Positions 5,631 through 46,567 of a DNA stretch of 64,000 nucleotides are shown here, piece by piece. The number at the start of each line of letters is the position of its first letter. The first letter of the stretch is position 1. Under the pieces are notes generated by a model. The model was not told the origin of the DNA. It ran no database searches and worked only from the letters and a program-made list of their open reading frames with translations. Made by a program: the position numbers and the translations under genes. Source of the stretch: Pseudomonas sp. N3-W (GTDB lineage: Bacteria; Pseudomonadota; Gammaproteobacteria; Pseudomonadales; Pseudomonadaceae); NCBI RefSeq assembly GCF_024970185.1, contig NZ_CP103965.1:368001-432000 (forward strand). Reading direction: 5' to 3'.

Positions 5631-5720
5631 TGTGGGAGCGAGCTTGCTCGCGATGGGGTCATCAGCTTCAACATTAATGTTGACTGACACACCGCCATCG
5701 CGAGCAAGCTCGCTCCCACA
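5631..5720. repeat. REP pair (inverted)
   Basis: Inverted copies of GTGGGAGCGAGCTTGCTCGCGATGG between the convergent secB and trmL ends; a long hairpin on either strand that can act as a 3' stabiliser or terminator for both. Confidence 0.9.
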
Positions 5721-5732
5721 TTTTTTTGCGTG

Positions 5733-6188
5733 TTATTTAAAGCCCAGCTGACGCCAGCCTTCGTACACGGCCACCGCCACGGTGTTGGACAGGTTCAAGC
5801 TGCGGCAGCCTTCGCGCATGGGCAGGCGCAGGCGTTGTTCGCCGGGCAGCGCATCCAGCACTTCGGCGGGCAGGCCACGGCTTTCCGGGCCGAACAGGAA
5901 GGCGTCGCCCTCGGCGAAGCTGGCATCGTGGAACGGCCGAGAACCCTTGGTGGTGAAGGCGAACAGCCGTGGATGGCCAAGGCTCTCCAGGCAGCTGGCG
6001 AGGTCGGCGTGGCGCTGCAGGGTGGCGTACTCGTGGTAGTCGAGGCCGGCCCGGCGCAGGCGCTTGTCGTCCATCTCGAAGCCCAGCGGCTCGATCAAAT
6101 GCAGGTGGCAGCCACTGTTGGCGCACAGCCTGATAACGTTGCCGGTATTCGGCGGAATTTCTGGTTGGAAAAGGATGACGTGAAACAT
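5733..6188 (-). CDS. trmL: tRNA (cytidine/uridine-34 2'-O)-methyltransferase
   Basis: SPOUT-class methyltransferase that 2'-O-methylates the wobble base of tRNA-Leu isoacceptors using S-adenosylmethionine. 151 aa. The sequence has the canonical opening MFHVILFQPEIPPNTGN, the knot-region LFGPESRGLP and the C-terminal SLNLSNTVAVAVYE. The start at 6188 is fixed by the conserved opening; the frame remains open upstream to 6695 but that region is the neighbour's coding sequence. The start codon shares CATG with the start of the divergent gene at 6187. Confidence 0.96.
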   Translation of the reverse strand: MFHVILFQPEIPPNTGNVIRLCANSGCHLHLIEPLGFEMDDKRLRRAGLDYHEYATLQRHADLASCLESLGHPRLFAFTTKGSRPFHDASFAEGDAFLFGPESRGLPAEVLDALPGEQRLRLPMREGCRSLNLSNTVAVAVYEGWRQLGFK

Positions 6189-6627
6189 GCACGGCTCCGA
6201 AGGTAAAGATGACGCGCATTCTACGCCGCAAGCGGATCCGCGTTCGAAACTATTCCCGCGGGTGATGGGTTCTTTGGCGATTGTCGGGCTGATGGTCGGA
6301 CTGATGATCGGTCGCCTGACCACACCAGACCCCAGCGTGCTGCAGCAGGTCGAGGTCACCCGCGATGGCCTGGTGGTGTGGTTCAACAACGAACCCAAGA
6401 CCCACGGCGAAATTATCGATGGCAGTGTTGCACTGCTGTTCGAGGCCGAAGGCAAGGCGCAGAAAGGCCAACTCAAGCTCAACGACAAAGGCGTCAACTG
6501 GCGGGTGCGTTTGAGTGATGGGGGATTGTTGCTGTCGCTGGTGGCGGCGCGGCCGCTGCAAGGCGAGTGGGCCGGCAGCAAGGTCGATGGCCGCTGGCGG
6601 CTGGAGATCCATCTCCGGGAGCAATAA
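6187..6627 (+). CDS. hypothetical single-pass membrane protein
   Basis: 146 aa, not recognised. A polar, charged N-terminus (about 1-25) is followed by one hydrophobic segment (about 27-46, GSLAIVGLMVGLMIG) and a mostly beta-type soluble domain with alternating hydrophobic residues, likely periplasmic. If ATG 6187 is used, its start codon overlaps that of the divergent trmL. A downstream in-frame ATG at 6265 begins directly before the membrane segment and would leave 76 bases between the genes; neither start has a strong ribosome-binding site. It is followed immediately by a three-copy repeat array and, about 290 bases on, by a strong terminator. Confidence 0.75.
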   Translation: MHGSEGKDDAHSTPQADPRSKLFPRVMGSLAIVGLMVGLMIGRLTTPDPSVLQQVEVTRDGLVVWFNNEPKTHGEIIDGSVALLFEAEGKAQKGQLKLNDKGVNWRVRLSDGGLLLSLVAARPLQGEWAGSKVDGRWRLEIHLREQ

Positions 6628-6835
6628 AAGAGGGAATCCCCGGCCTGCCTGTACCAAGGTTCCCAAAACGGCAGGGCTTGCGCATTGCATCGCAAGCCCG
6701 GTGTAAAGAAGGAACCCCTGACCTGCCTGTATCAAGGGCCCCAAAACGGGGTGGGCTCGTCGCGGTGGCGGTGTGAGCCCGATGTAAAGAGGGGAATCCC
6801 CGGCCTGCCTGTACCAAGGTCCCCGAAACCGGGTA
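6628..6835. repeat. three-copy non-REP repeat with internal hairpins
   Basis: The segment GGAATCCCCGGCCTGCC and its continuation (TGTACCAAGG, CCCAAAACGGGG) recurs at 6633, 6711 and 6793, at 78 and 82 base spacing. Units are linked by hairpins: GGGCTTGCG/CGCAAGCCC (6674-6682 with 6691-6699) and GGGCTC/GAGCCC (6753-6758 with 6775-6780). Each unit is preceded by a TAAAGA-type box. It does not match the REP family used elsewhere in the window. Confidence 0.8.
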
Positions 6836-6916
6836 GTGAACTGAATCACTGAATGGACTATTGCAGGGGGCGTGCCAGGTTTTAACAAATTGGTACAGAA
6901 AAATGCCTTTAAACGT
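6836..6916. other. non-coding stretch between repeat array and terminator
   Basis: AT-richer than its surroundings, no coding frame worth calling. It ends directly in a strong intrinsic terminator, so it could be a 3' UTR or the body of a small RNA. No convincing promoter is visible. Confidence 0.35.
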
Positions 6917-6951
6917 CGAAAGCCCCGTATTACGGGGCTTTCGTGTTTTTT
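6917..6951 (+). terminator. strong intrinsic terminator
   Basis: A 12-bp perfect stem CGAAAGCCCCGT/ACGGGGCTTTCG is followed by TGTTTTTT. It lies about 290 bases past the stop of the 146-aa membrane protein and upstream of the convergent ntrC end. Confidence 0.85.
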
Positions 6952-7051
6952 CGATCATCATTCGATTGCGAAAGCAGGCAGGGTTCTGGATCAATGTTTG
7001 TGCGCGATTGCGGTTCATGGTGCCTTCTGGCGGTGCATGGGGGCCAAAAAG

Positions 7052-7206: not shown

Positions 7207-8643
7207 TTAGCCCTCTTCCCCCTCATCATCATCCCCACCATCCACCTTCATCCCCAATTCCTTGATCTTGCGGGTCAGGGTATTGCGCCCCCAACCCAGC
7301 AACACCGCGGCATCGCGGCGGCGGCCAGCGGTGTGTTTGAGGGCGGTCTCGATCATGATCCGCTCGAAGGCCGGCACGGCGCTGTCCAGCAGGCTCGACT
7401 GCCCGCGAGCCAGGGCCTGATCGGCCCATTGGCGCAGCGCCTGTTCCCAGTTGGTCACCGGCGCCGAATCCTGCGGCAGGTTCAGCAGCTCTGGCGGCAG
7501 ATCGCTGATGTGCACTTCGCGACCGGAGGCCATCACCGTGATCCAGCGGCAGGTGTTCTCCAGCTGACGCACGTTGCCGCCCCACGGCAGGTTTTTCAGG
7601 TATTCCTCTGTTTCGCTTTTCAGCAGCTTCGGCTCCACCGCCAGTTCTTGCGCGGCGCGGCTGAGGAAGTGCTTGGCCAGGGTCGGAATGTCTTCGCGAC
7701 GGTCTGACAGCCGTGGAATGTGGATGCGAATCACGTTGAGACGGTGGAACAGGTCTTCGCGGAATTTCCCGGCGTGGACCAGTGTTTCCAGGTTCTGGTG
7801 CGTCGCGGCAATGATGCGCACGTCAACCTTCACCGGCACATGGCCGCCGACGCGATAGAACTCGCCATCGGCCAGGACCCGCAGCAGCCGGGTCTGGGTG
7901 TCTGCCGGCATGTCGCCGATTTCGTCGAGGAACAGCGTGCCGCCATCGGCTTGTTCAAAGCGCCCGCGCCGCAGGTTGGCCGCGCCGGTGAATGCGCCTT
8001 TCTCATGGCCGAACAGCTCGGATTCCATCAGGTCCTTGGGGATCGCCGCCATGTTCAGCGCGATGAATGGCGAGCTGGCCCGAGGGCTGTGGCGGTGCAG
8101 GGCGTGGGCCACCAATTCTTTACCGGTGCCGGATTCGCCATTGATCAGCACGGTGATGTTGGAGTGGCTCAAGCGCCCGATGGCGCGAAACACTTCCTGC
8201 ATCGCTGGCGCTTCGCCGATGATTTCTGGTGTGCGGGTCAGGGCAACCGGCACTTCCAGGCCTTGCTGTTCCTGGGCGTGCTGGTTGGCGCGCTTGACCA
8301 GGGAAACCGCTTCATCGACATCAAACGGCTTGGGCAGGTATTCGAAGGCGCCACCCTGATAGGAGGCGACAGCGCTGTCCAGGTCGGAGTGAGCGGTCAT
8401 GATGATGACCGGCAGCCGTGGGTGCTGTTCGCGAATCCGCGCCAGAAGGTCCAGGCCGCTGGCGCCGGGCATGCGGATGTCGGAGATGATCACATCCGGC
8501 TGCTGGCGCGCCAGGCGGCTCATCACGCCGTCGGCGCTGTCGAAGCTTTGCGTGGTCATGCCTTCCTGCTGCAAGGCTTTTTCAAGGACCCAACGGATAG
8601 AACGGTCGTCATCGACGATCCACACGGTTTCACTACGGCTCAT
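7207..8643 (-). CDS. ntrC: nitrogen regulation response regulator NtrC (GlnG)
   Basis: Sigma-54 activator that turns on nitrogen-assimilation promoters when phosphorylated by NtrB. 478 aa: receiver domain (about 1-120) with phospho-acceptor Asp55 in [10 protein letters not shown]+ domain (about 145-380) with Walker A GESGTGKE, the sigma-54 contact loop GAFTGA and the Walker B segment [11 protein letters not shown], then a Fis-type helix-turn-helix ending near [15 protein letters not shown] and an acidic tail. Start ATG 8643 overlaps the ntrB stop by four bases. It should bind the sites noted at 9924-9940 and upstream of glnA. Confidence 0.98.
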
Positions 8644-9725
8644 GTCGATGTGGCTCCTTGTTCCAGTGGCAGGAAGATCGAGAAAGTGGTGTGGCCTGGG
8701 TGGCTGTCACACTCGATCAAGCCCTGGTGCTGACTGATGATGTTCTGGGTAATGGCCAGGCCCAGCCCGGTACCGTCGGGACGACCGCTGACCATGGGAA
8801 AGAAAATGGTTTCCTGAAGTTCGGCAGGAATGCCCGGACCGTTGTCGATGATCTCGATCTTGGTCACCAGGCGATGGCGCACGTGGCCGATGGTGAACTG
8901 GCGCATGGCGCGGGTGCGCAGGCTGATGCGGCCAAGGCGCAGTTCGTTCTGGCTGCTGATGGCCTGCATTGCGTTGCGCACAATGTTGAGCACCGCCTGA
9001 ATCATCTGTTCGCGGTCGATCAACACGTCGGGAATGCTTGGGTCGTAGTCACGCACCAAGGTGATGCAGCCCTGGCTTTCGGCTTCCACCAGATGACAGA
9101 CGCGTTCCAGCACTTCGTGGACGTTGCACATGGCCAGCGATGGCAGCTTGTTGGAGCCGAGCATGCGGTCCACCAGGTTTCGCAGGCGGTCGGCTTCTTC
9201 GATGATCACGTTGGTATAGTCGCGCAGGCTTTCTTCGGGCAGCTCGCGGGCCAGCAACTGCGCCGCGCCGCGAATCCCGCCCAGCGGATTCTTGATCTCG
9301 TGAGCCAGGCCGCGCACCAGCATCTTGCTGGTTTCCTGTTTCGACAACTGCGCTTCTTCCTTGGTGATCCGCAGCAGGCGGTCACGGGGATGGACTTCCA
9401 GCAGCAGCAGCGTGTCACCGTTGCTCAGGATCGGTGTTACCGCGTAATCGACCGTCAGGGTCTGGCCGGTGAGGGCGGTGAGCATGGCTTCGCGCTTGGT
9501 GAACGGGTGCGCCTGCTCCACCGCCTGGCGCAGGGAATTCAGCGCTTCGGTGGATTCGGTGAACAGCTCGCTGATGAACTGCCCGTGGCTGCGCTGGCCG
9601 CTGATGGCCAGCAGCATCTCTGCCGCCGGGTTCATGTACTCAAGGCGCAGTTCGGCATCAAGCAGGATGGTGGCAGTGGTCAGGTTGTCGAGAAGCAATC
9701 GATGCAGTGCGTCGCTAATGGTCAT
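8640..9725 (-). CDS. ntrB: nitrogen regulation sensor histidine kinase NtrB (GlnL)
   Basis: Cytoplasmic two-component kinase/phosphatase controlled by PII proteins; phosphorylates NtrC under nitrogen limitation. 361 aa: PAS domain (about 10-115), HisKA with His142 in LAHEIKNPLGG, and an HATPase domain with N box (NIVRNAMQA), DNGPGIP (G1) and GTGLGLAI (G2). No membrane segment. The stop overlaps the ntrC start (ATGA), which indicates translational coupling. Its 230-bp upstream region carries candidate control elements described separately. Confidence 0.98.
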   Translation of the reverse strand: MTISDALHRLLLDNLTTATILLDAELRLEYMNPAAEMLLAISGQRSHGQFISELFTESTEALNSLRQAVEQAHPFTKREAMLTALTGQTLTVDYAVTPILSNGDTLLLLEVHPRDRLLRITKEEAQLSKQETSKMLVRGLAHEIKNPLGGIRGAAQLLARELPEESLRDYTNVIIEEADRLRNLVDRMLGSNKLPSLAMCNVHEVLERVCHLVEAESQGCITLVRDYDPSIPDVLIDREQMIQAVLNIVRNAMQAISSQNELRLGRISLRTRAMRQFTIGHVRHRLVTKIEIIDNGPGIPAELQETIFFPMVSGRPDGTGLGLAITQNIISQHQGLIECDSHPGHTTFSIFLPLEQGATST

Positions 9726-9782
9726 CAGGACCTCTTTTGGAGCAGGGCGCGGGCAAAGACTCAGCGCAGATGTGAGGAAAAT

Positions 9783-9797
9783 GCAAAAACCAAACCA
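9783..9797 (-). promoter_or_regulatory. candidate sigma-54 promoter for ntrBC
   Basis: Read on the minus strand: TGGTTTGGTTTTTGC, with GG and GC exactly ten bases apart and a perfect TTGC -12 element. The -24 element matches only TGG of TGGCAC. Transcription would begin about 45 bases before the ntrB ATG. Confidence 0.45.
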
Positions 9798-9812
9798 AAG
9801 CTCCGAAAAGAA

Positions 9813-9843
9813 GCGTTTAACGCCTGAAACGGGCGTTTAACGC
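9813..9843. promoter_or_regulatory. two perfect 11-bp palindromes, candidate operator
   Basis: GCGTTTAACGC occurs at 9813-9823 and again at 9833-9843, exactly 20 bases apart (about two helical turns), just upstream of the candidate ntrB promoter. Each is a perfect odd-length palindrome. I do not recognise the regulator. Confidence 0.5.
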
Positions 9844-9923
9844 TCGATCACGTGGCGTTCTGCCAGCTTTCGCGGGTATTTTCGAACCAAAATGGTTTGA
9901 GAGGTGGGTAGGGTGCAACTATT

Positions 9924-9940
9924 CGCACCAATATAGTGCG
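9924..9940. promoter_or_regulatory. candidate NtrC binding site upstream of ntrBC
   Basis: CGCACCAATATAGTGCG matches the NtrC consensus (TGCACCA, three bases, TGGTGCA) at nearly all core positions. It is centred about 160 bases upstream of the inferred ntrB transcription start and 16 bases past the stop of the preceding DUF4124 gene, fitting autogenous control. Confidence 0.6.
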
Positions 9941-9955
9941 CAAAGCTGAACGAGG

Positions 9956-10576
9956 TTAGAAGAACCTCAGGAAGGGATTTTTTTCTTCCTCGGGCTTGTC
10001 CTTGAGCGGGCATTCCGGCCGCTGGCCGTAGTCCGCCAAAGTGCAGGGATTGACCTGGCGTTTCTGCGCGAGGGAGATGCGTAGCATGTGGAAGGGCTGA
10101 TTGGCGGTGCGTTCGACGGTGCGGCCCAGCTCGTCGATGATTTCCACTGACAGGTTATGACTGCCCCGGTCGATGTTGGTCAACGGGAACACCGGGCTCA
10201 GCCCAGGCTCTGCGGTGGGCTGGCCGTCCAGTAGCAAGCGGTAGCGATGGCCCTTTTGCAGGCCCGGCTCGCTGGTGACGCTGACGATCAGCTCGCCGGC
10301 GCTGCTGCGAATCGTGGCGTCCGGTTCCGGTACCAGTACGCGGAGCATGTCGTAGTGGAACAGCGGCGTTTCTTCAGTTTTTTTCGCGGCGATCACCGGG
10401 GTCGCGCCGGTCGGGTTGGCCGACATGCGATTGCTCGTCGCAATCGGTACGCGCTTGGCGCTGCCGGAGCCCGGCTGGTCGGTGTAGACACGGTTGCCCT
10501 GGGCATCGACGTAGGTGAAGACCTCAGCCGTCGCGGGCAGGGTCAGCAGGCACAGGATCAGCCACCAGGCCTTCAA
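9956..10576 (-). CDS. DUF4124 domain-containing exported protein (second of pair)
   Basis: 206 aa. A signal peptide (about 1-17, ending TAEV) leads into a DUF4124 motif (VFTYVDAQGNRVYTDQPG). The middle region has a beta-sandwich-like stretch (RYRLLLDGQPTAEPGLSPVFPLTNIDRGSHNLSVEI) shared with the neighbour. The start is a TTG at 10576 that overlaps the stop of the preceding gene as TTGA; it falls exactly before the signal peptide and no ATG is available. Sits between glnA and ntrBC. The molecular function is unknown; it may bind cell-wall or surface ligands in the periplasm, but nothing here proves that. Confidence 0.85.
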   Translation of the reverse strand: MKAWWLILCLLTLPATAEVFTYVDAQGNRVYTDQPGSGSAKRVPIATSNRMSANPTGATPVIAAKKTEETPLFHYDMLRVLVPEPDATIRSSAGELIVSVTSEPGLQKGHRYRLLLDGQPTAEPGLSPVFPLTNIDRGSHNLSVEIIDELGRTVERTANQPFHMLRISLAQKRQVNPCTLADYGQRPECPLKDKPEEEKNPFLRFF

Positions 10577-31545: not shown

Positions 31546-32307
31546 GTGCCGACTCCGCCTGCCACATTGCCGCCCAATGCCAATCTGAGCGCCAATCTGG
31601 GCGACAGTCCGGCGCCCTTGTATGCGCGCGTCAAACAGATGATCACCCAGCAGATCGACAGTGGAAACTGGCCGCCGCACTACCGTGTCCCGTCGGAAAG
31701 CGAGCTGGTCAACCAGCTGGGTTTCAGTCGCATGACCATCAACCGCGCGCTGCGCGAGATGACCGCCGACGGCCTGCTGGTGCGCATGCAGGGCGTCGGC
31801 ACGTTCGTCGCCGAGCCGAAAAGCCAGTCCGCGCTGTTTGAAGTGCACAACATCGCCGACGAGATTTCCTCCCGCGGCCATCGCCACACCTGCAAGGTCA
31901 TCACCCTCGAAGAGGAGGCCGCCGGTTCCGAGCGCGCCCTGGCCCTGGACATGCGCGAAGGGCAGAAGGTGTTCCACTCGCTGATCGTGCATTTCGAAAA
32001 CGATATCCCGGTGCAAATCGAAGACCGTTTCGTCAACGCGCTGGTGGCACCGGACTACCTCAAGCAAGACTTCACCCTGCAAACGCCTTACGCCTATCTG
32101 AACCAGGTCGCACCGCTGACTGAAGGCGAACATGTGGTCGAGGCGATTCTGGCCGAAGCCAGCGAGTGCAAATTGTTGCAGATTGAAAAAGGCGAGCCGT
32201 GCCTGCTGATCCGTCGCCGTACCTGGTCTGGCCGTCAGCCGGTGACCGCCGCCCGTTTGATCCACCCCGGTTCCCGCCATCGTCTGGAAGGGCGGTTTCA
32301 TAAATAA
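31546..32307 (+). CDS. hutC: histidine utilization repressor (GntR/HutC family)
   Basis: Transcriptional repressor of hut genes, relieved by urocanate. 253 aa, GTG start. N-terminal winged helix (about 20-90; YRVPSESELVNQLGFSRMTI is the recognition region) and a C-terminal UTRA effector domain (about 105-245). Divergent from hutF and followed by hutD with 8 bases between. Confidence 0.96.
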   Translation: MPTPPATLPPNANLSANLGDSPAPLYARVKQMITQQIDSGNWPPHYRVPSESELVNQLGFSRMTINRALREMTADGLLVRMQGVGTFVAEPKSQSALFEVHNIADEISSRGHRHTCKVITLEEEAAGSERALALDMREGQKVFHSLIVHFENDIPVQIEDRFVNALVAPDYLKQDFTLQTPYAYLNQVAPLTEGEHVVEAILAEASECKLLQIEKGEPCLLIRRRTWSGRQPVTAARLIHPGSRHRLEGRFHK

Positions 32308-33342: not shown

Positions 33343-35031
33343 GTGACTGACAATACCCAGAAACCTACAAAGTATCGTGACGTTGAAATCCGCGCTGCCC
33401 GCGGTAACAAGTTGACCGCCAAGAGCTGGATGACTGAAGCGCCGCTGCGCATGCTGATGAACAACCTCGACCCGGAAGTCGCCGAGAACCCTAAAGAACT
33501 GGTGGTTTATGGTGGCATCGGTCGTGCGGCACGTAACTGGGAGTGCTACGACAAGATCGTCGAAAGCCTGACCAACCTGAACGACGACGAGACCCTGCTG
33601 GTGCAATCCGGCAAGCCGGTCGGCGTGTTCAAGACCCACAGCAACGCCCCGCGTGTACTGATCGCCAACTCCAACCTGGTACCGCACTGGGCAAGCTGGG
33701 AGCACTTCAACGAACTCGACGCCAAAGGCCTGGCCATGTACGGCCAGATGACCGCCGGCAGCTGGATCTACATCGGCAGCCAGGGCATCGTTCAAGGTAC
33801 CTACGAAACCTTCGTTGAAGCCGGTCGCCAGCACTACAACGACAACCTGAAAGGCCGTTGGGTGCTGACCGCAGGCCTGGGCGGCATGGGCGGCGCTCAG
33901 CCGCTGGCCGCGACCCTGGCGGGTGCTTGCTCGCTGAACATCGAATGCCAGCAGATCAGTATCGATTTCCGTTTGAAAAGCCGTTACGTCGACGAACAAG
34001 CCACCGACCTCGACGACGCGCTGGCCCGCATCGCCAAATACACCCAGGAAGGCAAGGCGATTTCCATTGCCCTGCTGGGCAACGCGGCTGAAATCCTGCC
34101 GGAACTGGTCAAGCGCGGCGTGCGCCCGGACATGGTCACCGACCAGACCAGCGCCCACGACCCACTGAACGGCTACCTGCCTGCCGGCTGGACCTGGGAC
34201 CAATACCGCGCCCGTGCCAAGACCGAACCGGCTGCTGTGATCAAAGCCGCCAAGCAGTCGATGGCGGTACACGTCAAAGCCATGCTCGACTTCCAGAAGA
34301 TGGGCATTCCGACCTTCGACTACGGCAACAACATCCGTCAGATGGCGCAAGAAGAAGGCGTGGAAAACGCCTTCGACTTCCCGGGCTTCGTACCGGCCTA
34401 CATCCGTCCACTGTTCTGCCGTGGCATCGGCCCGTTCCGCTGGGCTGCGCTGTCGGGCGACCCGCAAGACATCTACAAGACCGACGCCAAAGTCAAAGAG
34501 CTGATCCCGGACGACGCCCACCTGCACAACTGGCTGGACATGGCCCGCGAGCGCATCAGCTTCCAGGGTCTGCCGGCACGTATCTGCTGGGTTGGCCTGG
34601 GCCTGCGCGCCAAGCTGGGCCTGGCGTTCAACGAAATGGTGCGCAGCGGTGAGTTGTCCGCGCCGATCGTGATCGGCCGCGACCACCTGGACTCCGGTTC
34701 CGTGGCCAGCCCGAACCGCGAAACCGAATCCATGCAGGACGGCTCCGACGCTGTGTCCGACTGGCCACTGCTCAACGCTTTGCTCAACACCGCGAGCGGC
34801 GCGACCTGGGTTTCGCTGCACCACGGCGGCGGCGTCGGCATGGGCTTCTCCCAGCACTCGGGCATGGTGATTGTCTGCGACGGTACTGACGAGGCGGCCG
34901 AGCGTATCGCCCGCGTGCTGCACAACGACCCGGCGACCGGCGTCATGCGTCACGCCGATGCGGGTTACCAGATCGCTATCGATTGCGCCAAGGAACAGGG
35001 GCTGAATCTGCCGATGATTACCGGCAAGTAA
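33343..35031 (+). CDS. hutU: urocanate hydratase
   Basis: Second step of histidine degradation: urocanate to imidazolonepropionate, with tightly bound NAD+. 562 aa, standard. GTG start preceded by GAGGAG. Visible are the NAD-site [17 protein letters not shown], the conserved [12 protein letters not shown] region and the [17 protein letters not shown] region. It begins the long plus-strand hut segment and is directly preceded by a HutC operator and a sigma-54-like promoter. Confidence 0.98.
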
Positions 35032-35210: not shown

Positions 35211-36683
35211 ATGGCTGTTAATGACGATCGTGCAAGCAGTAAGCCGTTGATCGAAAGGCGTTCGATCGACTACATCCCGGAAGCGGAAAGACACGGTCGT
35301 CTGTTAAGCCAGTTCACCCTGTGGCTGGGTGCCAACCTGCAAATCACCGCGATTGTCACCGGGGCCCTGGCCGTGGTGCTGGGCGGTGATGTGTTCTGGT
35401 CGTTGATCGGTCTGTTGATCGGTCAATTGCTGGGCGGTGGCGTCATGGCGCTGCATGCGGCCCAAGGCCCGCAACTGGGCTTGCCGCAGATGATCTCCAG
35501 CCGCGTGCAGTTTGGCGTGTATGGCGCGGTGATTCCGCTGGTGTTGGTGTGCCTGATGTACATCGGCTTCTCGGCCAGCGGTTCGTTGCTGGCGGGGCAG
35601 GCGGTGGCGCAGTTGTTGAATGTCCAGGACTGGGTCGGCATCGTGCTGTTCGCCGGCTCCATCATGGTCTTCACCATCTTCGGCTACCGGGTGATCCACG
35701 GCATCGGCCGGATCGCCAGCGTGCTGGGCGTGGTTGCGTTCGTTTACCTGTTCTACAAACTGTTGGCCGGCAACGACATCATGGCGTTGCTCGGCAACAA
35801 GCATTTCTCGCTGGCGAGTTTCCTGTTGGCGGTGTCGTTGTCGGCGTCCTGGCAGATCGCGTTCGGCCCGTATGTGGCGGACTACTCGCGTTACTTGCCG
35901 CGCAGCACCTCGGCATCGAAAACCTTCTGGGCCGTGGGTCTGGGCTCGGTGATCGGCGCGCAGGCGTCCATGGTGTTCGGTGTGTTCGCCGCCGCCCTGG
36001 CCGGTTCGCAATTCGCCCATCACGAAGTGTCGTTCATCGTCAGCCTCGGCGGCACCGGCATCGTCGCCGCTCTGCTGTACTTCGCAGTAGCGTTCGGCAA
36101 GGTCACGGTGACCACGCTCAACGCCTACGGCAGTTTCATGTCGATTGCGACGATCATCAGCGGCTTCCGTGGCAGCCGCCACATCTCCAGCGGCGTGCGT
36201 CTGCTGTACATCTTCATCATGGTCTCGCTGGCCGCCGCGCTGGCGTTGCTGGGCAAGGACTCGTTCCTCAAGGATTTCTCCGCGTTCATCCTGTTCCTGC
36301 TGGCGTTCTTCACCCCCTGGAGCGCGATCAACCTGGTGGATTTCTACTGCATCACCAAAGAGCGTTATGACATTCCAGCGTTGTCGAACCCCAATGGTCG
36401 TTACGGACGCTGGAACCTCATGGGCATCTCGATTTACGTGTTTGGCGTGTTGATTCAAATGCCGTTCATCTCCACCCACTTCTACACGGGGCCTCTGGTC
36501 GCGAGCCTCGGTGATACCGACATCTCGTGGATCATCGGCCTGGTGGTGCCGGCCGTGATGTATTACTTCGCGGCGAAGAAGTGGCATGGCGCAGTACCCG
36601 ATCGATTGATCCTGCCGGTAGAGCAGGACAACGTTGCCGCTCCTCAAACAAGCGGGGCCGGTCGCGCTGCGGCGCAGGCCTGA
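35211..36683 (+). CDS. NCS1-family permease, probable urocanate transporter
   Basis: 490 aa, about 12 transmembrane helices, cytosine/purine/thiamine permease type (GGVMALHAAQGPQLGLPQMISSRVQFG is the family's early signature). In the P. fluorescens hut locus the equivalent gene, hutTu, has been assigned to urocanate uptake. Position between hutU and hutXWV agrees. Substrate is inferred from context, not from a residue in the sequence. Confidence 0.88.
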   Translation: MAVNDDRASSKPLIERRSIDYIPEAERHGRLLSQFTLWLGANLQITAIVTGALAVVLGGDVFWSLIGLLIGQLLGGGVMALHAAQGPQLGLPQMISSRVQFGVYGAVIPLVLVCLMYIGFSASGSLLAGQAVAQLLNVQDWVGIVLFAGSIMVFTIFGYRVIHGIGRIASVLGVVAFVYLFYKLLAGNDIMALLGNKHFSLASFLLAVSLSASWQIAFGPYVADYSRYLPRSTSASKTFWAVGLGSVIGAQASMVFGVFAAALAGSQFAHHEVSFIVSLGGTGIVAALLYFAVAFGKVTVTTLNAYGSFMSIATIISGFRGSRHISSGVRLLYIFIMVSLAAALALLGKDSFLKDFSAFILFLLAFFTPWSAINLVDFYCITKERYDIPALSNPNGRYGRWNLMGISIYVFGVLIQMPFISTHFYTGPLVASLGDTDISWIIGLVVPAVMYYFAAKKWHGAVPDRLILPVEQDNVAAPQTSGAGRAAAQA

Positions 36684-36751: not shown

Positions 36752-37720
36752 ATGAAGTCGAACAAGACCCTGTTGACCACAGTGCTTTCCATGGGCCTGC
36801 TGGCCAGCGCCGGCGCCACTCAGGCAGCCGGTTGGTGCGAGTCGGGCAAACCGGTGAAATTTGCCGGCCTGAACTGGGAAAGCGCAATGCTGCTGACCGA
36901 CGTGCTGCAAGTCGTGTTGGAGAAAGGCTACGACTGCAAGACTGACAGCCTGCCGGGCAATTCCATCACCATGGAAAACGCCCTGAGCAGCAACGACATC
37001 CAGGTGTTCGCCGAAGAGTGGGTAGGCCGCAGCGAGGTCTGGAACAAGGCCGAGAAGGCCGGCAAGGTCGTCGGTGTCGGCGCCCCGGTGGTCGGTGCCG
37101 TCGAAGGCTGGTACGTGCCGCGCTACGTGATCGAAGGCGACGCCAAACGCAAGCTGGAGCCGAAAGCCCCGGACCTGAAAAACATCGCCGACCTGGCCAA
37201 ATACGCGGCCGTGTTCAAGGATCAGGAAGAGCCGTCCAAGGGCCGCTTCTACAACTGCCCGGCCGGCTGGACCTGTGAGCTGGACAACAGCGAAATGCTC
37301 AAGAGCTATGGCCTGGAAAGCAGCTACACCAACTTCCGCCCAGGCACCGGCCCGGCGCTGGATGCGGCGGTGCTGTCAAGCTATAAGCGTGGCGAGCCGA
37401 TCCTGTTCTACTACTGGTCGCCAACCCCGCTGATGGGCCAGGTGGATCTGGTCAAGCTCGAAGAAAAACCCGGTGTGGACAAGCACGTGACCATCAAGGT
37501 CGGCCTGTCCAAGACCTTTCACGACGAAGCCCCGGAACTGGTGGCCGTGCTGGAGAAGGTCAACCTGCCGATCGACATCCTCAATCAAAATCTGGGACGC
37601 ATGACCAAGGAGCGGATCGAGTCGCCAAAACTGGCGAAAATCTTCCTCAAGGAACATCCTGAGGTCTGGCACGCATGGGTGAGCGACGACGCAGCCAAAA
37701 AGATCGACGCGGCCTTGTAG
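36752..37720 (+). CDS. hutX: HutX: histidine-type ABC transporter substrate-binding protein (ProX/OpuAC fold)
   Basis: 322 aa periplasmic binding protein of the betaine-binding (OpuAC) class, signal peptide about 1-25 (ATQAAG). The mature part begins with WCESGKPVKFAGLNWESAMLLTDVLQ, like betaine/choline binding proteins. With hutW and hutV it forms a quaternary-amine-type importer; in hut loci this system is assigned to histidine uptake. Has its own good ribosome-binding site (TTAGGAGCG) 8 bases before the ATG. Confidence 0.92.
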   Translation: MKSNKTLLTTVLSMGLLASAGATQAAGWCESGKPVKFAGLNWESAMLLTDVLQVVLEKGYDCKTDSLPGNSITMENALSSNDIQVFAEEWVGRSEVWNKAEKAGKVVGVGAPVVGAVEGWYVPRYVIEGDAKRKLEPKAPDLKNIADLAKYAAVFKDQEEPSKGRFYNCPAGWTCELDNSEMLKSYGLESSYTNFRPGTGPALDAAVLSSYKRGEPILFYYWSPTPLMGQVDLVKLEEKPGVDKHVTIKVGLSKTFHDEAPELVAVLEKVNLPIDILNQNLGRMTKERIESPKLAKIFLKEHPEVWHAWVSDDAAKKIDAAL

Positions 37721-37790: not shown

Positions 37791-38642
37791 ATGTTTCCCG
37801 AAAGCTTTACCTTTTCCATCGCCGACTGGGTCAACGGTTGGGTCGATTCGCTGGTCACCAACTACGGCGACGTGTTCCGGCACATCTCCGACACGCTGCT
37901 GTGGGCCATCGTCAACCTCGAAAGCCTGCTGCGTGCAGCGCCGTGGTGGCTGATGCTGGCCATCGTTGCCGGCATCGCCTGGCACGCCACCCGCAAGGTC
38001 GTGACGACCGTGGTGATCGTCGGTTTGCTGTTCCTGGTCGGCGCCGTCGGCCTCTGGGACAAACTCATGCAGACCCTGGCGCTGATGATGGTCGCCACGG
38101 TCATTTCGGTGCTGATCGGCATTCCGCTGGGCATTCTCTCGGCGCGCAGCAATCGCCTGCGTTCGGTGCTGATGCCGTTGCTGGACATCATGCAGACCAT
38201 GCCCAGCTTCGTGTACCTGATCCCGGTGCTGATGCTGTTCGGCCTGGGCAAGGTCCCGGCGATTTTTGCCACGGTGATCTACGCCGCGCCGCCGCTGATC
38301 CGCCTCACCGACCTGGGTATCCGCCAGGTTGACGGTGAAGTGATGGAGGCGATCAACGCCTTCGGTGCCAACCGCTGGCAGCAACTGTTCGGTGTGCAAC
38401 TGCCGCTGGCCCTGCCGAGCATCATGGCGGGGATCAACCAGACCACCATGATGGCACTGTCGATGGTGGTCATCGCCTCGATGATCGGTGCCCGTGGCCT
38501 GGGCGAAGATGTGCTGGTGGGGATTCAGACGCTCAACGTCGGGCGGGGCCTTGAGGCCGGTCTGGCGATCGTGATTCTGGCCGTGGTCATTGACCGCATT
38601 ACTCAGGCGTATGGTCGTCCGCGCCACGAGGTGAGCAAATGA
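37791..38642 (+). CDS. hutW: HutW: ABC transporter permease (ProW type)
   Basis: 283 aa with about five to six membrane helices. The EAA-type loop is seen as GEVMEAINAFGANRWQQLFGVQLPLALP. The stop overlaps the hutV start by four bases (ATGA). Inner-membrane channel of the HutXWV importer. Confidence 0.94.
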   Translation: MFPESFTFSIADWVNGWVDSLVTNYGDVFRHISDTLLWAIVNLESLLRAAPWWLMLAIVAGIAWHATRKVVTTVVIVGLLFLVGAVGLWDKLMQTLALMMVATVISVLIGIPLGILSARSNRLRSVLMPLLDIMQTMPSFVYLIPVLMLFGLGKVPAIFATVIYAAPPLIRLTDLGIRQVDGEVMEAINAFGANRWQQLFGVQLPLALPSIMAGINQTTMMALSMVVIASMIGARGLGEDVLVGIQTLNVGRGLEAGLAIVILAVVIDRITQAYGRPRHEVSK

Positions 38643-39469
38643 GCAACGCAGCCATCAGCAAGATCGAAGTCAAAAACGTCTTCAAGATTTTCGGCAACCG
38701 CTCCAAGGATGCGCTGGCGATGATCGGTCAGGGCAAAACCAAGGATCAGGTGCTGGCCGAAACTGGCTGCGTGGTGGGTGTGAACGACTTGTCGTTGAGC
38801 ATCGCCACCGGCGAGATTTTCGTGATCATGGGCCTGTCCGGCTCCGGCAAATCGACACTGGTGCGCCATTTCAACCGCCTGATCGACCCCACCAGCGGCG
38901 CGATCCTGGTTGACGGCGTGGACATCCTGCAATACGACATGCCGGCGCTGCGCGAATTTCGCCGGCACAAGATCAGCATGGTGTTCCAGAGCTTCGGCCT
39001 GCTGCCGCACAAGAGCGTGGTCGACAACGTCGCCTACGGCCTGAAAGTGCGCGGCGAGAGCAAGCAGATGTGCGCCGAACGTGCGCTGCACTGGATCAAC
39101 ACCGTGGGCCTGAAGGGCTACGAAAACAAATACCCGCATCAGCTCTCGGGTGGCATGCGTCAGCGCGTGGGCCTGGCCCGTGCGCTGGCGGCGGACACCG
39201 ACATCATCCTGATGGACGAAGCGTTCAGTGCCCTCGATCCACTGATCCGCGCCGAGATGCAGGACCAGTTGCTGGAACTGCAGAAGACCCTGCACAAGAC
39301 CATCGTTTTCATCACTCACGACCTCGATGAGGCAGTGCGCATTGGCAACCGCATTGCGATTCTCAAGGACGGGCGCTTGATCCAGGTGGGCACGCCGAGG
39401 GAGATCCTGCATTCGCCGGCCGATGAATATGTTGACCGGTTCGTGCAGCGGCGGGCTGCGGTGGTCTGA
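38639..39469 (+). CDS. hutV: HutV: ABC transporter ATP-binding protein (ProV type)
   Basis: 276 aa ATPase. Walker A GLSGSGKST, signature LSGGMRQRVGLARAL and Walker B DIILMDEAFSALD, then the H-loop FITHDLDEA. It ends about 20 residues after the ATPase core and lacks the CBS domains of full-length ProV, so it should not sense ionic strength. Start overlaps hutW. Confidence 0.95.
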   Translation: MSNAAISKIEVKNVFKIFGNRSKDALAMIGQGKTKDQVLAETGCVVGVNDLSLSIATGEIFVIMGLSGSGKSTLVRHFNRLIDPTSGAILVDGVDILQYDMPALREFRRHKISMVFQSFGLLPHKSVVDNVAYGLKVRGESKQMCAERALHWINTVGLKGYENKYPHQLSGGMRQRVGLARALAADTDIILMDEAFSALDPLIRAEMQDQLLELQKTLHKTIVFITHDLDEAVRIGNRIAILKDGRLIQVGTPREILHSPADEYVDRFVQRRAAVV

Positions 39470-39489: not shown

Positions 39490-39830
39490 CGGCCCCTTCG
39501 CGAGCAGGTGTGTGGACACCGGAGATCCCCTGTGGGAGCGGGCTTGCCCGCGAAGGGGCCAGTGAAGTTGTATCAATATTCAAGCTGTACGCCTGACTTC
39601 ATCGCAGGCAAGCCAGCTCCCATAGGTGTGTGGACACCGGAGATCCCTTGTGGGAGCGGGCTTGCCCGCGAAGGGGCCAGTGAAGTTGCATCAATATTCA
39701 AGCTGTACGCCTGACTTCATCGCAGGCAAGCCAGCTCCCACAGGTATGTGGACACCGGAGATCCCCTGTGGGAGCGGGCTTGCCCGCGAAGGGGCCGGCA
39801 AAGCTGCATCAATATTCAGGATTTACGGTT
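39490..39830. repeat. 118-bp tandem repeat carrying REP sequence
   Basis: A 118-base unit with REP-type sequence (GTGGGAGCGGGCTTGCCCGCGAAGGGGCC), an inverted partial REP (GCAGGCAAGCCAGCTCCCA) and the spacer GTGTGGACACCGGAGATCCC recurs: the spacer begins at 39512, 39630 and 39748. About 2.6 copies are present, nearly identical. It fills the 371-base gap between hutV and hutH2. No promoter is obvious. Confidence 0.9.
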
Positions 39831-39840
39831 GAGGTCAAAG

Positions 39841-41364
39841 ATGTCCCAGGCTGAAAAAATCGTTATCGCCGACGTCAAACTGCGTTGGCAGGATGTGGTC
39901 GCCGTCGCCCGTCACGGCGCGCAACTTGAGCTGTCGCAGCAGACCTGGGCACGGATCGACAATGCCCAGGCCATCGTCCAGCGCATCGTCGCCAGCGGTG
40001 AGCGCGCCTATGGCGTCAACACCGGCCTCGGCGCCTTGTGCAACGTCTCGCTCAAGGACGAACAACTCAGCCAGTTGTCACGCAACACGCTGCTCAGCCA
40101 CGCGTGTGGCGTTGGCGCAGCGCTGAGTAACGAGCAGACCCGCGCCATCATCTGCGCGGCCATCGTCAACTACAGCCATGGTAATTCCGGCATTCATCGT
40201 CAGGTCGTCGAAGCGTTGCTGGCGCTGCTCAATCGCGGCATCACCCCGCAAGTGCCGTCGCAAGGCTCGGTCGGTTATCTGACCCACATGGCCCATATCG
40301 GCATCGCGCTGTTGGGTGTCGGCAATGTCAGCTATCGCGGGCAGATCGTGTCCGCGCAGCAGGCGTTGGCCGAAGAAGACCTGCAACCGGTTCAACTCGG
40401 CGCCAAGGACGGTCTGTGCCTGGTCAACGGCACGCCATGCATGACCGGCCTCAGCTGTCTGGCCCTGGCTGACGCGACGCGGCTGGTGCAATGGGCCGAT
40501 GTGATTGGCGCCATGAGTTTCGAGGCCCAGCGCGGGCAGATCGCCGCGTTTGATGCCCAGATCATCGCGCTCAAGCCGCACCCGGGCATGCAGCAAGTCG
40601 GCAGCAATCTGCGGGCGTTGCTTGATGGCAGCGAAGTGATCGCCGCCAGCCTGGGCATCCGCACCCAGGATGCGTTGAGCATCCGCTCGATTCCGCAGGT
40701 GCACGGCGCCGCTCGCGATCAACTGGAACACGCGAAACAGCAGATCGAAATCGAGCTCAATTCCGTCACCGACAACCCGATGCTGCTGGGCACGCCGGAC
40801 AACTATCGCGTCATGTCCCAGGCCAACCCACACGGTCAATCCGTGGCATTGGCGGCGGACTTGCTGGCGATTGCCATGGCCGAGATCGGCTCCATCGCCG
40901 AGCGGCGTCTGGACCGGTTGATCAACCCGCACGTCAGCGGTCTGCCGGCATTCCTGGTGGCCAATCCGGGGGTGAACTCCGGGATGATGATCGTGCAGTA
41001 CGTCGCCGCTTCGCTGTGTGCGGAAAATCGCCAGTTGGCACAACCGGCGGTGCTCGACAACTACGTCACCTCGGGTTTGCAGGAAGACCATCTGAGCCTG
41101 GGCACCAGTGCCGCATTGAAGCTGCATCGCGCCCTGGAGAACTGCACACAGATTCTCGCCATCGAGTATCTGCTGGCGGCGCAAGCGTTTGAATTCCTCA
41201 AGGAGCAGCGCTTCGGCGCTGGCACCGACACCGCCTGGCGACTGCTGCGTGAGCGCGTTCCGGCTTACGACCAGGATCGCTGGCTGGCGCCGGACATCGC
41301 CGCCGCCGCGAGTGTCTTGAAAGACCCGAATTTGCTGCACAAGGCTTTACCGAACATCAACTGA
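39841..41364 (+). CDS. hutH2: HAL/PAL/TAL-family protein lacking the MIO triad (HutH2)
   Basis: 507 aa aromatic amino acid ammonia-lyase fold, second hutH copy of the locus. Compared with the neighbouring Hut[16 protein letters not shown] is replaced by [12 protein letters not shown] (residues 142-153): the three residues that form the MIO electrophile are absent. Tyr57 (YGVNTGLG), His87 (SHACGVG), the VNGTP Asn and the QED Glu remain, but the essential Tyr after the QD pair is Leu (QDALSIR). Start ATG 39841. A normal MIO lyase reaction is therefore not expected; a pseudoenzyme, a regulator or a subunit paired with HutH are options. No frameshift is visible: the difference is exactly three codons. 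It may be conserved in other pseudomonads; I cannot verify that. Confidence 0.88.
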
Positions 41365-41479
41365 CATCAACAAAAAAACCAGCGTGCCAAGGCGCGGCTC
41401 CCCAACGGGCAGACGCGACGGACAACGGGCATCTCCGGAGCGTCTGGTGAGTAAACAACACTCTCAAAAGGAGAACAAA

Positions 41480-43012
41480 ATGACTGCACTTAACCTCATT
41501 CCCGGCCAACTGAGCCTTGCCCAACTGCGTGATATCTATCAGCACCCGGTCAAACTCACCCTCGACGACAGTGCCTCGGCCCAGATCGAAGCCAGCGTCG
41601 CCTGCGTCGAGCAGATCCTCGCCGAGAACCGCACTGCCTATGGCATCAACACCGGTTTCGGCCTGCTGGCCTCGACCCGCATCGCCAGCGAAGACCTGGA
41701 AAACCTGCAACGCTCGCTCGTGCTGTCCCACGCAGCCGGTGTCGGCGAGCCGATCAGCGACGCGTTGGTGCGCCTGGTCATGGTGCTCAAGGTCAACAGC
41801 CTGAGCCGTGGTTTCTCCGGCATTCGCCGCGTGGTGATCGACGCGCTGATCGCCCTGATCAACGCCGAGGTGTATCCGCACATTCCATTGAAAGGCTCGG
41901 TCGGCGCGTCCGGCGACCTGGCGCCTTTGGCCCATATGTCGCTGGTGCTGCTGGGTGAAGGCAAGGCTCGTTACAAGGGCGAATGGCTGCCGGCCACCGA
42001 AGCGCTGAAAGTCGCCGGCCTGGCGCCGCTGACCCTGGCCGCGAAAGAAGGCCTGGCGCTGCTCAACGGTACTCAGGTTTCCACCGCTTATGCCTTGCGC
42101 GGTCTGTTCGAAGGCGAAGATCTGTTCGCCGGGGCTCTGGCTATCGGCGGCATCACCGTCGAAGCCGTGCTGGGCTCGCGCTCGCCGTTTGACGCACGCA
42201 TCCATGCCGCTCGTGGCCAGAAAGGCCAGATTGACGCCGCTGCCGCCTACCGCGACCTGCTGGGCGAGCGCAGCGAAGTGTCCGATTCGCACCAGAACTG
42301 CGAAAAGGTTCAGGATCCGTACTCCCTGCGTTGCCAGCCGCAAGTCATGGGCGCCTGCCTGACCCAGTTCCGTCAGGCTGCCGAAGTGCTGGCCATCGAA
42401 GCCAACGCCGTGTCCGATAACCCGCTGGTATTCGCTGCCGAAGGCGATGTGATTTCCGGTGGCAACTTCCACGCCGAACCGGTGGCCATGGCGGCTGACA
42501 ACATGGCGTTGGCCATCGCCGAAATCGGCTCGCTGAGCGAACGCCGCATCTCGCTGATGATGGACAAGCACATGTCGCAACTGCCGCCGTTCCTGGTGGC
42601 CAATGGCGGCGTGAACTCCGGCTTCATGATTGCCCAAGTAACGGCGGCGGCACTGGCCAGCGAGAACAAGGCGCTGTCCCATCCGCATTCGGTGGACAGC
42701 CTGCCGACGTCGGCGAACCAGGAAGACCACGTGTCCATGGCTCCGGCCGCTGGCAAGCGTCTGTGGGAAATGGCCGAAAACACTCGCGGTGTGCTGGCGG
42801 TGGAATGGCTGGCGGCGTGCCAGGGGCTGGATCTGCGTGATGGCCTGAAGACGTCGACCAAGCTGGAAAAAGCGCGTGCCATCCTGCGTGCAGAAGTGCC
42901 GTTCTATGAGAAGGACCGTTTCTTCGCCCCGGACATCAATGCGGCTAGCGAGCTTCTGGCGACGCGTTGCCTGAACGAGCTGGTGGTGGCGAAGTTGCTG
43001 CCTAGTCTGTAA
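41480..43012 (+). CDS. hutH: histidine ammonia-lyase
   Basis: First step of histidine degradation: histidine to urocanate and ammonia via the self-made MIO cofactor. 510 aa, the length of the characterised P. putida enzyme. The MIO triad ASG is in [11 protein letters not shown] (about residues 142-144), with Tyr53-region [15 protein letters not shown], the LNGTQ Asn, [11 protein letters not shown] and NQEDHVSM all intact. ATG 41480 has an AAAGGAG ribosome-binding site; the upstream in-frame ATG at 41384 is not conserved. Confidence 0.98.
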
Positions 43013-44547: not shown

Positions 44548-45753
44548 ATGAAAACGCTCTGGCAACACTGTCACGTCGCAACGATGGCGCAAGGCGTCTA
44601 CTCGATCATCGAGGATGCGGCCATCGTGACGTCCGGTGCGCACATTGAGTGGGTCGGCCCACGCAGTGAATTGCCGGCGGGTGAGTACCCGGCGGTCAAT
44701 GATTTGAACGGGGCCTGGGTCACGCCGGGCCTGATCGACTGCCATACCCATACGGTGTTCGGCGGTAACCGCAGCGGTGAATTCGAACAGCGGCTGCAAG
44801 GTGTCAGTTATGCGGACATCGCGGCTGCTGGCGGCGGCATCGCCAGCACTGTGCGCGCCACTCGTGCTGCCAGCGAAGATGAATTGTTTGCCAGCGCCGC
44901 CAGGCGATTGAAGAGCCTGATGCGCGACGGCGTGACCACCGTCGAGATGAAGTCCGGCTACGGCCTGGACCTGGCCAGCGAACGCAAGATCCTGCGAGTT
45001 ATCCGTCGCCTCGGCGCCGAATTGCCGGTCAGCGTACGCAGCACGTGCCTGGCCGCTCACGCCTTGCCGCCCGAGTACACGGACCGTGCCGACGACTACA
45101 TTGAGCACATCTGCGCCGAGATGCTCCCGGCCCTCGCCGCCGAAGGGCTGGTGGATGCCGTGGATGCGTTCTGCGAGTACCTGGCGTTTTCCCCGGCTCA
45201 GGTCGAGCGGGTGTTCATCACCGCCCAGGAACTCGGCCTGCCGGTGAAGCTGCACGCCGAGCAATTGTCTTCGCTGCACGGCTCGAGTCTGGCGGCGCGT
45301 TACCACGCGTTGTCGGCGGATCATCTGGAATTCATGACCGAAGAAGACGCCATCGCCATGGCCGCGTCCGGTACAGTCGCAGTGCTGCTGCCGGGGGCTT
45401 TCTACTTCCTGCGTGAAACCCAGTTGCCGCCGATGGATGCCTTGCGCAAACACGGGGTGAAAATCGCCATCGCCAGCGACCTCAATCCCGGCACCTCGCC
45501 GGCATTGTCGTTGCGCCTGATGCTGAACATGGCCTGCACCTGTTTCCGTATGACCCCGGAAGAAGCGCTGGCTGGCGCAACAATTCATGCCGCCACTGCG
45601 TTGGGCATGGCCGATACCCACGGTTCGCTGGAAGCCGGCAAGGTGGCGGATTTCGTCGCCTGGCAAATCGATCGTCCTGCCGACCTGTCGTACTGGCTGG
45701 GTGGCGATCTGGAAAAACGCGTCGTGCGTCACGGCGTCGAAACGAGCATTTAG
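44548..45753 (+). CDS. hutI: imidazolonepropionase
   Basis: Third step of the pathway: hydrolysis of imidazolone-5-propionate to formimidoyl-glutamate. 401 aa metal-dependent amidohydrolase: [15 protein letters not shown] (metal His pair), KLHAEQ, SADHLE and ASDLNPGTS (catalytic Asp) are present. Ribosome-binding site AGGGAGG. The hutG GTG start lies 10 bases past its stop. Confidence 0.97.
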
Positions 45754-45763
45754 GAGAGTCGTT

Positions 45764-46567
45764 GTGGATAAGGTTCTGAGTTTCAAAAAAGGCCGTGTAC
45801 CGCTGCTGATCAGCATTCCTCACGCTGGCTCGACATTGACACCGGCGGTCGAGGCTGGATTGGCTCCCGGCGCACGCAATCTGCAGGACACCGACTGGCA
45901 CATTCCGCAGCTTTACGACTTTGCCGCCGAGCTGGGTGCCAGCATCCTGTCCGCCGAGTATTCGCGTTTTGTCATTGATCTGAACCGTCCGTCTGACGAC
46001 AAGCCGTTGTATGCCGGCGCGACCACCGGTCTGTTCCCGGCAACGCTGTTTGACGGCAGTCCGTTATTTCAAGAGGGCATGGAGCCGTCGGCGGCGGAGC
46101 GGGCGACCTATCTGGAACAGGTCTGGACGCCTTATCACAGCACCTTGCACAACGAGCTGGCGCGACTGAAGGCCGAGTTCGGCTACGCCCTGTTGTTCGA
46201 CGCGCATTCGATCCGCTCGGTGGTCCCGTACCTGTTCGACGGCAAGCTGCCGGACTTCAACCTCGGCACTTTCAACGGCGCCAGTTGCGATCCGCAGCTG
46301 GAGGCTCAGTTGGCAGCGATTTGTACCAGACACCCGGCCTACAGCCATGTAGTGAATGGGCGTTTCAAGGGCGGCCACATTACCCGGCATTACGGTAATC
46401 CGGCTGAGAGCATCCATGCAGTGCAGTTGGAAATGGGTCAGTGCACCTACATGGAAGAGTTCGAGCCGTTCCGCTATCGGCCGGACCTGGCGGCACCGAC
46501 GCAGGTGGTACTCAAGGAGTTGCTGCAAGGGGTGTTGGCCTGGGGCCAAAAGCACTACGCCCGCTAG
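45764..46567 (+). CDS. hutG: N-formylglutamate deformylase
   Basis: Last step: formylglutamate to glutamate and formate, the counterpart of HutF. 267 aa. Family features are the opening RVPLLISIPHAGSTLT, ADTDWHIP-like DTDWHIPQLYDFA, and LLFDAHSIRSVVP. GTG start at 45764 after the TAGGAGAG site. Last gene of the plus-strand hut string; a REP pair follows. Confidence 0.96.
   Translation: MDKVLSFKKGRVPLLISIPHAGSTLTPAVEAGLAPGARNLQDTDWHIPQLYDFAAELGASILSAEYSRFVIDLNRPSDDKPLYAGATTGLFPATLFDGSPLFQEGMEPSAAERATYLEQVWTPYHSTLHNELARLKAEFGYALLFDAHSIRSVVPYLFDGKLPDFNLGTFNGASCDPQLEAQLAAICTRHPAYSHVVNGRFKGGHITRHYGNPAESIHAVQLEMGQCTYMEEFEPFRYRPDLAAPTQVVLKELLQGVLAWGQKHYAR

Follow-up and report, generated by a model that had tools for sequence, protein, structure and literature searches.

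A histidase paralogue of Pseudomonas that lacks the Ala-Ser-Gly triad is a candidate hercynine trimethylamine-lyase

Introduction

In histidine ammonia-lyase (HAL, the product of hutH), departure of the amino group of histidine requires an electrophile, 4-methylideneimidazole-5-one (MIO), that is formed from an Ala-Ser-Gly triad in the protein itself. Ergothionase releases trimethylamine from ergothioneine, giving thiourocanate, and is described as lacking MIO in the available part of one paper (PMC13405746). In Pseudomonas fluorescens SBW25, an NCS1-family permease, an ATP-binding cassette (ABC) transporter and a second histidase are encoded as a module between hutU and hutH; the available part of the paper that reports this also locates the module in P. 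aeruginosa, calls the second histidase gene, hutH1, one that is not required on histidine, and reports HutTu of SBW25 to be a urocanate transporter (PMC8871633). Here we describe the same module in a 64,000-nucleotide stretch of the Pseudomonas sp. N3-W genome (NZ_CP103965.1, positions 368,001 to 432,000; the window), and in particular its second HAL-family gene, which we call HutH2.

We propose, with a probability of roughly 0.6, that HutH2 is a MIO-independent trimethylamine-lyase that would convert hercynine (histidine betaine) to urocanate. The strongest clue to its role is the transporter that is encoded directly upstream, which the initial annotation of this DNA did not include; that annotation also did not note that the gene appears to be the one named hutH1 in SBW25.

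Results

HutH2 lacks the MIO-forming triad

HutH2 is an intact open frame, as first annotated (ATG at 39841, 507 amino acids, zero internal stops), and its product is 39% identical to the neighboring HutH across 477 columns of a pairwise alignment. The MIO loop of HutH2 is three residues shorter than that of HutH, and Ala-Ser-Gly is gone. The initial annotation had the triad missing by exactly three codons. The absence of the triad and the shorter loop were both found, but the placement of the gap is ambiguous (more than one placement is possible), and in one alignment ASGD is replaced by a single residue, Tyr146, so that Asp145 is lost along with the triad. Two other early readings held: the essential Tyr of the HutH motif QDPYSLR is Leu in HutH2 (QDALSIR), and the active-site shell is kept (Tyr57, His87, Asn196 and Glu415, and also Gln276 and Arg282 in the alignment with HAL). 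In addition, Phe329 of HAL is Pro330 in HutH2, and the Pro of the HAL motif DLAPLAH is His149. The HAL residue numbers and roles used here are those of the P. putida enzyme.

The loss of the triad is conserved and HutH2 is under purifying selection

We searched 57 relatives and found a HutH2 orthologue in 26 genomes (the window's own included), all of the same genus as the window and with identities of 79-100%. The triad is absent from all 26 (25 read directly and one, L021, in an alignment). Close relatives that keep ASG would have meant a local deletion in the window; none was found among the orthologues read. In one homologue set, 121 of the 122 proteins read had a HutH2-type loop, and the sole exception was HutH itself. 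We also listed 354 distinct homologues besides the protein of the window, taken from the best 120 matches of each of three homologue searches. GASGD occurs in none of these and GSVGY or GSAGY in all 354, and the position of Tyr280 is Leu in 353 and Met in one. The triad was likewise missing at 80 of 80 named loci, which were drawn, mostly from Pseudomonas, from 587 confirmed stretches.

HutH2 is conserved from Pseudomonas to the Rhizobiaceae and one Paenibacillus. A class-wide search (229 genomes) gave no HutH2 match above 45% outside the window's own genome. A phylum-wide search (397 genomes) turned up divergent orthologues (46-94%) in a further 26 genomes, and the triad was absent from all 18 of those loci that were read (L101-L118).

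HutH2 is under purifying selection. The ratio of nonsynonymous to synonymous substitution rates (dN/dS) had a median of 0.128 and a range of 0.047-0.235 over 325 pairs; synonymous sites are near saturation in the distant pairs, and the eight closest pairs gave 0.048-0.096. The fixed loss of the triad and this dN/dS support the initial view that HutH2 is a retained protein with a changed role and not one in decay.

HutH2 is linked to transporter genes

A transporter gene lies directly upstream of HutH2 at 76 of the 80 named loci, and at 62 of the 80 it is of a quaternary-ammonium type: the gene directly 5' encodes an OpuAC-type ABC ATPase at 55 loci and a BCCT transporter at 7. We compared these to 22 control loci with a MIO-bearing HAL. 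Within 6 kb on either side of the control genes there was no match to a binding protein of the OpuAC or SBP_bac_3 type or to a BCCT gene, in a search made with the same queries only, such that other kinds of transporter would escape it. One control locus (L073) gave a 24% match to the ATPase, and 15 of the 22 had hutU.

The transporter and HutH2 also occur in the same genomes. An orthologue of the permease (at least 86% identity) was present in exactly the 26 of 57 genomes that have HutH2, the next best permease being 68% identical, and no such binding protein or permease was found at six loci that have HutH without HutH2 (L042-L047). In the window, seven of the eight PDB matches of the binding protein are named as glycine betaine, betaine, proline or choline binding or transport proteins, and the eighth is named just ABC transporter permease subunit. 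At L104 and L105 the gene order is hutU-BCCT-HutH2-hutI, and in the PDB the BCCT protein of L104 is most similar to a trimethylamine transporter (203 bits) and BetP (198 bits). At L035 the genes for the binding protein, permease, ATPase and HutH2 form a unit with a divergent LysR gene, and hut queries gave no match within the 19.5-kb stretch.

HutH2 has HutH as its neighbor in 21 of the 26 genomes; in the other five (G008, G022, G023, G025 and G026) HutH lies elsewhere. In four of the loci of those five genomes (L031-L035), HutH2 is accompanied by hutU, hutI or hutG. HutH lies inside the locus at 49 of the 80 named loci. Pfam scans of chosen HutH2 neighbors found no clear trimethylamine-handling gene. 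Two loci have a gene for a DAO-type flavin adenine dinucleotide oxidoreductase, possibly an N-methyl amino acid oxidase, directly after HutH2 (L107, 10729-11889; L110, 10524-11690).

The pathway downstream of HutH2 is that of urocanate

The hydratases encoded beside HutH2 in the window and at L104, L105 and L195 scored 986-1020 bits as urocanate hydratase and 682-712 bits in the NCBI thiourocanate hydratase model, which has a cut-off of 930. That is, all four that were scanned are of the urocanate type, indicating that the pathway downstream of HutH2 is that of urocanate.

In L195, which is from Paenibacillus eucommiae, genes for permeases, then for an OpuAC protein and for an ATPase, lead up to HutH2; hutU comes next, followed by a match to hutI. 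We searched the 10.3-Mb genome of P. eucommiae with HutH and with its own HutH2, and each time HutH2 itself was the sole HAL-family match. Among 98 genomes around P. eucommiae, 22 (P. eucommiae included) had a match. The gene was read in 15 relatives: 14 carry ASG and QDAY, and the fifteenth (L221) is of another MIO-less type and lies next to an OpuAC-type ABC transporter. The nine ASG-bearing relatives' loci that had flanks showed neither an OpuAC protein nor a matching permease; six of the nine had hutU.

HutH2 forms its own clade in the HAL family

HutH2 matches PF00221, the aromatic amino acid lyase fold, with 555 bits. In a tree of 50 rows, including 24 of HutH2 and 13 of HAL (L221 was not included), all HutH2 rows group in one clade (support 100/100), apart from the clade of the HAL rows (96/96). 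L056 and L120 group together at 100/100. A topology with a single clade common to all MIO-less proteins was 2.35 log units worse (p = 0.369), and one that joined HutH2 with the ergothionase clade gave p = 0.364. Since a common MIO-less clade is not rejected, the tree does not distinguish one loss of MIO from several.

At 17 positions, at least 95% of 119 HutH2 rows (a sample of about a third of the 354 listed proteins) have one residue and at least 85% of 55 HAL rows have another. The switched positions include Tyr146, His149, Leu279, Gln327, Ala328 and Tyr387; the rhizobial group of L107 departs from the HutH2 pattern at some of them. The predicted model of HutH2 has a predicted local distance difference test score (pLDDT) of 89.7 and a predicted template modeling (TM) score of 0.91, and is weak (pLDDT below 50) chiefly at residues 407-421, which include Glu415. 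The PDB chains nearest to the model are of HAL, and ergothionase ranks 15th (TM scores 0.89/0.91). The fold search places HAL above ergothionase, and the fold does not separate the two.

Organization of the window and other family members

The features of the window are listed in Table 1. Copies of a sequence like a repetitive extragenic palindrome (REP), spaced 118 bases apart, fill the interval from the ATPase gene to HutH2; at L033, L035 and L036 this interval is about a dozen bases long.

Table 1. Positions of HutH2, its altered codons and neighboring features in the window
Feature	Position	Strand	Remarks
hutC, histidine utilization repressor	31546..32307	+	
hutU, urocanate hydratase	33343..35031	+	TIGR01228, 1020 bits; thiourocanate hydratase model (cut-off 930), 689 bits
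NCS1-family permease, position of hutTu	35211..36683	+	HutTu of SBW25 is a reported urocanate transporter
Substrate-binding protein, OpuAC (glycine-betaine type), hutX-like	36752..37720	+	
ABC permease, choline/glycine-betaine type, hutW-like	37791..38642	+	
ABC ATPase, betaine/proline/choline type, hutV-like	38639..39469	+	
Three REP-like copies (starts 39536, 39654, 39772)	39536..39840	.	gap between ATPase gene and HutH2
HutH2 (hutH1 in SBW25 naming, by position)	39841..41364	+	MIO-less HAL-family protein, 507 amino acids; proposed hercynine trimethylamine-lyase
Codons Gly142-Ser-Val-Gly145-Tyr146 (HAL: GSVG-Ala-Ser-Gly-Asp)	40264..40278	+	computed from residue numbers
Codon Leu279 (Tyr280 in P. 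putida HAL numbering; Leu277 in ergothionase)	40675..40677	+	alignment
Codon Pro330 (HAL Phe329)	40828..40830	+	alignment
HutH, canonical histidine ammonia-lyase with ASG and QDPYSLR	41480..43012	+	scanned as 41384-43012
hutI, imidazolonepropionase	44548..45753	+	
Open reading frame carrying hutG (N-formylglutamate deformylase) from residue 63 on	45587..46567	+	true start probably later

Other MIO-less types, L049/L050/L105b/L221 and L056/L120, are also without ASG and fall, where they are in the tree, in clades separate from HutH2. L049, L105b and L221 adjoin OpuAC-type binding proteins, and L056 and L120 adjoin SBP_bac_3 ABC genes. The MIO-less proteins of L049 (7402-8877), L050 and L051 have GSLGESDLAPLAH, and in L049 genes for an OpuAC binding protein and a TonB receptor lie upstream. 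L105 encodes, in the same locus as HutH2, an ergothionase-like MIO-less protein (5510-7045, minus strand; 268 bits to 6s7j), near hutG and with an OpuAC binding protein and ABC genes adjoining. L056 (8674-10215, minus strand) and L120 (8955-10502, minus strand) have a MIO-less type, GSVGYLA/GSVGYLG, that retains Tyr280 and Phe329. The Paenibacillus relative of L221 has the type GSIGAADLGPL (8523-10028, minus strand).

Two MIO-bearing members stood out. In G034 (C1:1367745-1369165), a canonical HutH next to an intact HutH2 is in two frames, reflecting either a sequencing error or a real break. The genome of the window has a third family member, with ASG (G000 C1:502369-503730; L052). A similarly scoring match was found in 30 of 36 genomes of the same genus, L052 and L063 alone having been read.

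Discussion

The precedent of a MIO-less ergothionase, the betaine-type transporters and the urocanase together suggest the simplest reading: hercynine in, urocanate and trimethylamine out. Hercynine (N-alpha-trimethyl-L-histidine) would be imported by the HutXWV-type betaine transporter, HutH2 would eliminate trimethylamine from it to yield urocanate, and urocanate would then be converted to glutamate via HutU, HutI, HutF and HutG. MIO would be dispensable because the trimethylammonium of hercynine is already a good leaving group and has no need of the electrophile that HAL uses for departure of ammonia. The shortened loop, with Tyr146 and His149, may give space for the bulky quaternary nitrogen and help to hold it, and the retained Tyr57, Glu415 and Arg282 may serve in acid/base catalysis and binding of the carboxylate. 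The missing MIO residues, their conserved absence, the separate clade, the gene linkage and the urocanase partner are observations; the substrate, the reaction and these residue roles are what we infer. A search for hercynine lyase, hercynine degradation, and hercynine with urocanate and trimethylamine found no paper in the literature covered, which excludes most subscription journals, and the reaction may be in print. In a Sinorhizobium, a HutXWV transporter takes up both histidine and betaines.

Several observations weigh against hercynine as the substrate. The ATPase gene directly 5' of HutH2 is of the SBP_bac_3 (polar-amino-acid) type, and not of the betaine type, at 14 of the 80 loci. At the remaining four (L185, L196, L197 and L198) no transporter was detected directly upstream, the gene there being a hutC-like regulator (one locus) or none of the queried genes (three loci). 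The HutH2 neighbors scanned at L103 and L116 also included no transporter. In addition, the 80 loci come mostly from Pseudomonas and are not independent. HutH2 passes the cut-off of the TIGR01225 hutH equivalog model (539.15 bits), narrowly in the window (543.9 bits, compared to 727.9 for the true HutH) and with 586 bits in Paenibacillus, and is a histidase by the standard of that model. The narrow pass may explain why the family, where it has a database name, is called histidine ammonia-lyase or HAL/PAL/TAL family ammonia-lyase.

The closest precedent also differs from HutH2. Ergothionase (6s7j) clades with L092, L105b, L049 and L050 at 100/100, with HutH2 outside, and it keeps Phe329 where HutH2 has Pro330. 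Tyr387 of HutH2, found in 119 of 119 sampled rows, aligns with Lys383 (by count) of 6s7j, presumably the catalytic Lys384 of ergothionase.

Two reports on pseudomonads count on the same side. HutXWV of SBW25 is described, in the available part of PMC8871633, as participating in histidine uptake. The available part of PMC12772324 names PA5093 as hutG and describes hut deletion strains, including that one, as poor on histidine or urocanate. In P. aeruginosa PA7 (L164), the gene directly before hutI is HutH2. By the PAO1 gene order, PA5093 of PAO1 may be the HutH2 orthologue. Based on the position of HutH2 in PA7, either the hutG label of PA5093 is mistaken, or a HutH2 orthologue was deleted, which would argue against a dispensable side branch.

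Other roles for HutH2 have to be weighed against conversion of hercynine. It is unlikely, but conceivable, that HutH2 is a MIO-independent enzyme whose imported substrate resembles histidine in some other way and is not a full betaine (a histidine with incomplete N-methylation, or imidazole lactate or a derivative). The SBP_bac_3 amino-acid transporters at 14 loci and the DAO-type genes directly 3' of HutH2 at L107 and L110 would fit such a substrate. The OpuAC or BCCT transporters at 62 loci would not, and the poorer leaving groups of these compounds would seem to need MIO.

Marginally less likely again is that HutH2 is a second kind of ergothionase that produces thiourocanate and trimethylamine from ergothioneine, which is also a histidine betaine. 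The two proteins have a common fold, no MIO triad, and Leu at the position of Tyr280. However, HutH2 is outside the well-supported ergothionase clade, although the data do not reject one clade for all MIO-less proteins (p 0.36-0.37), and in all four cases scanned the linked hydratase is of the urocanate type and scores below the cut-off for thiourocanate hydratase. The tree and the type of hydratase likewise weaken the notion that HutH2 is a plain ergothionase.

We regard it as improbable that HutH2 is a catalytically dead partner, either a subunit that inhibits or stabilizes HutH or a ligand sensor that works with the transporter. The catalytic Tyr280, Phe329 and MIO are all lost, the active sites of HAL are assembled from several chains, and HutH neighbors HutH2 in 21 of the 26 genomes, as a subunit would also predict, and is within the locus at 49 of 80. 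On the other hand, Tyr57, His87, Asn196, Arg282 and Glu415 are invariant across 25 HutH2 and 3 HAL rows of one alignment, and the linked urocanase implies that there is a product. Among the roles that were first offered for HutH2, a MIO-independent reaction is the best fit. The idea of a regulatory HutH subunit agrees less well with the data and is weakened by the five of 26 genomes in which HutH is not adjacent and by P. eucommiae, which has HutH2 and urocanase and gave no other HAL-family match.

It is very doubtful that HutH2 is still a histidase, working without MIO or with another electrophile: the TIGR01225 score and the database names favor this, but both the triad and Tyr280 are missing. 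Decay of a hutH duplicate, which the loss of three codons beside an intact paralogue would resemble if a single genome were read, can be dismissed along with a local deletion, given the 26 of 26 orthologues that are intact and alike, the agreement of the 354 listed homologues and 80 loci, the dN/dS of ~0.13 and the conservation from Pseudomonas to the Rhizobiaceae and one Paenibacillus.

If HutH2 does convert hercynine to urocanate, this would explain why a second histidase that is dispensable for growth on histidine has been retained. The HutXWV-HutH1 module would gain a function, a widespread family would be renamed correctly, and bacteria would have a further pathway, leading from histidine betaine to trimethylamine and glutamate. 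HutH2 would also be a clean case of an enzyme that shed its built-in electrophile once its substrate supplied a good leaving group. A broader view, which we hold tentatively and at somewhat less than even odds, is that the histidase name hides an entire branch of histidine utilization: a MIO-free hercynine trimethylamine-lyase that has its own importer, was recruited with transporters of three unrelated types, and is carried by Pseudomonas, enterobacteria, rhizobia and one Paenibacillus. On a still wider view, betaine lyases might be the rule among HAL-fold proteins that lack MIO (HutH2, ergothionase, and the L049/L105b/L221 and L056/L120 types), each having a transporter and an aromatic betaine of its own.

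Comparison with known systems

Judged by gene position, HutH2 of the window is most likely the orthologue of hutH1 of SBW25. The account of hutH1, in the available part of PMC8871633, makes no mention of a missing triad or a betaine substrate. Compared to HAL (P. putida 1b8f and the HutH of the window), HutH2 has the same fold and keeps the positions of Tyr53, His83, Asn195, Gln277, Arg283 and Glu414. It differs from HAL in having no ASG, Tyr280 or Phe329, in the 17 switched positions and in its link to a transporter. Ergothionase of Treponema denticola (6s7j/6s7q) has the fold of HutH2, also lacks ASG and has Leu at the position of Tyr280. The two are 28% identical, with E-G-D in the loop of ergothionase and Y in that of HutH2, and are in separate clades. 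HutH2 probably works like ergothionase in doing without MIO, yet lies outside the ergothionase clade.
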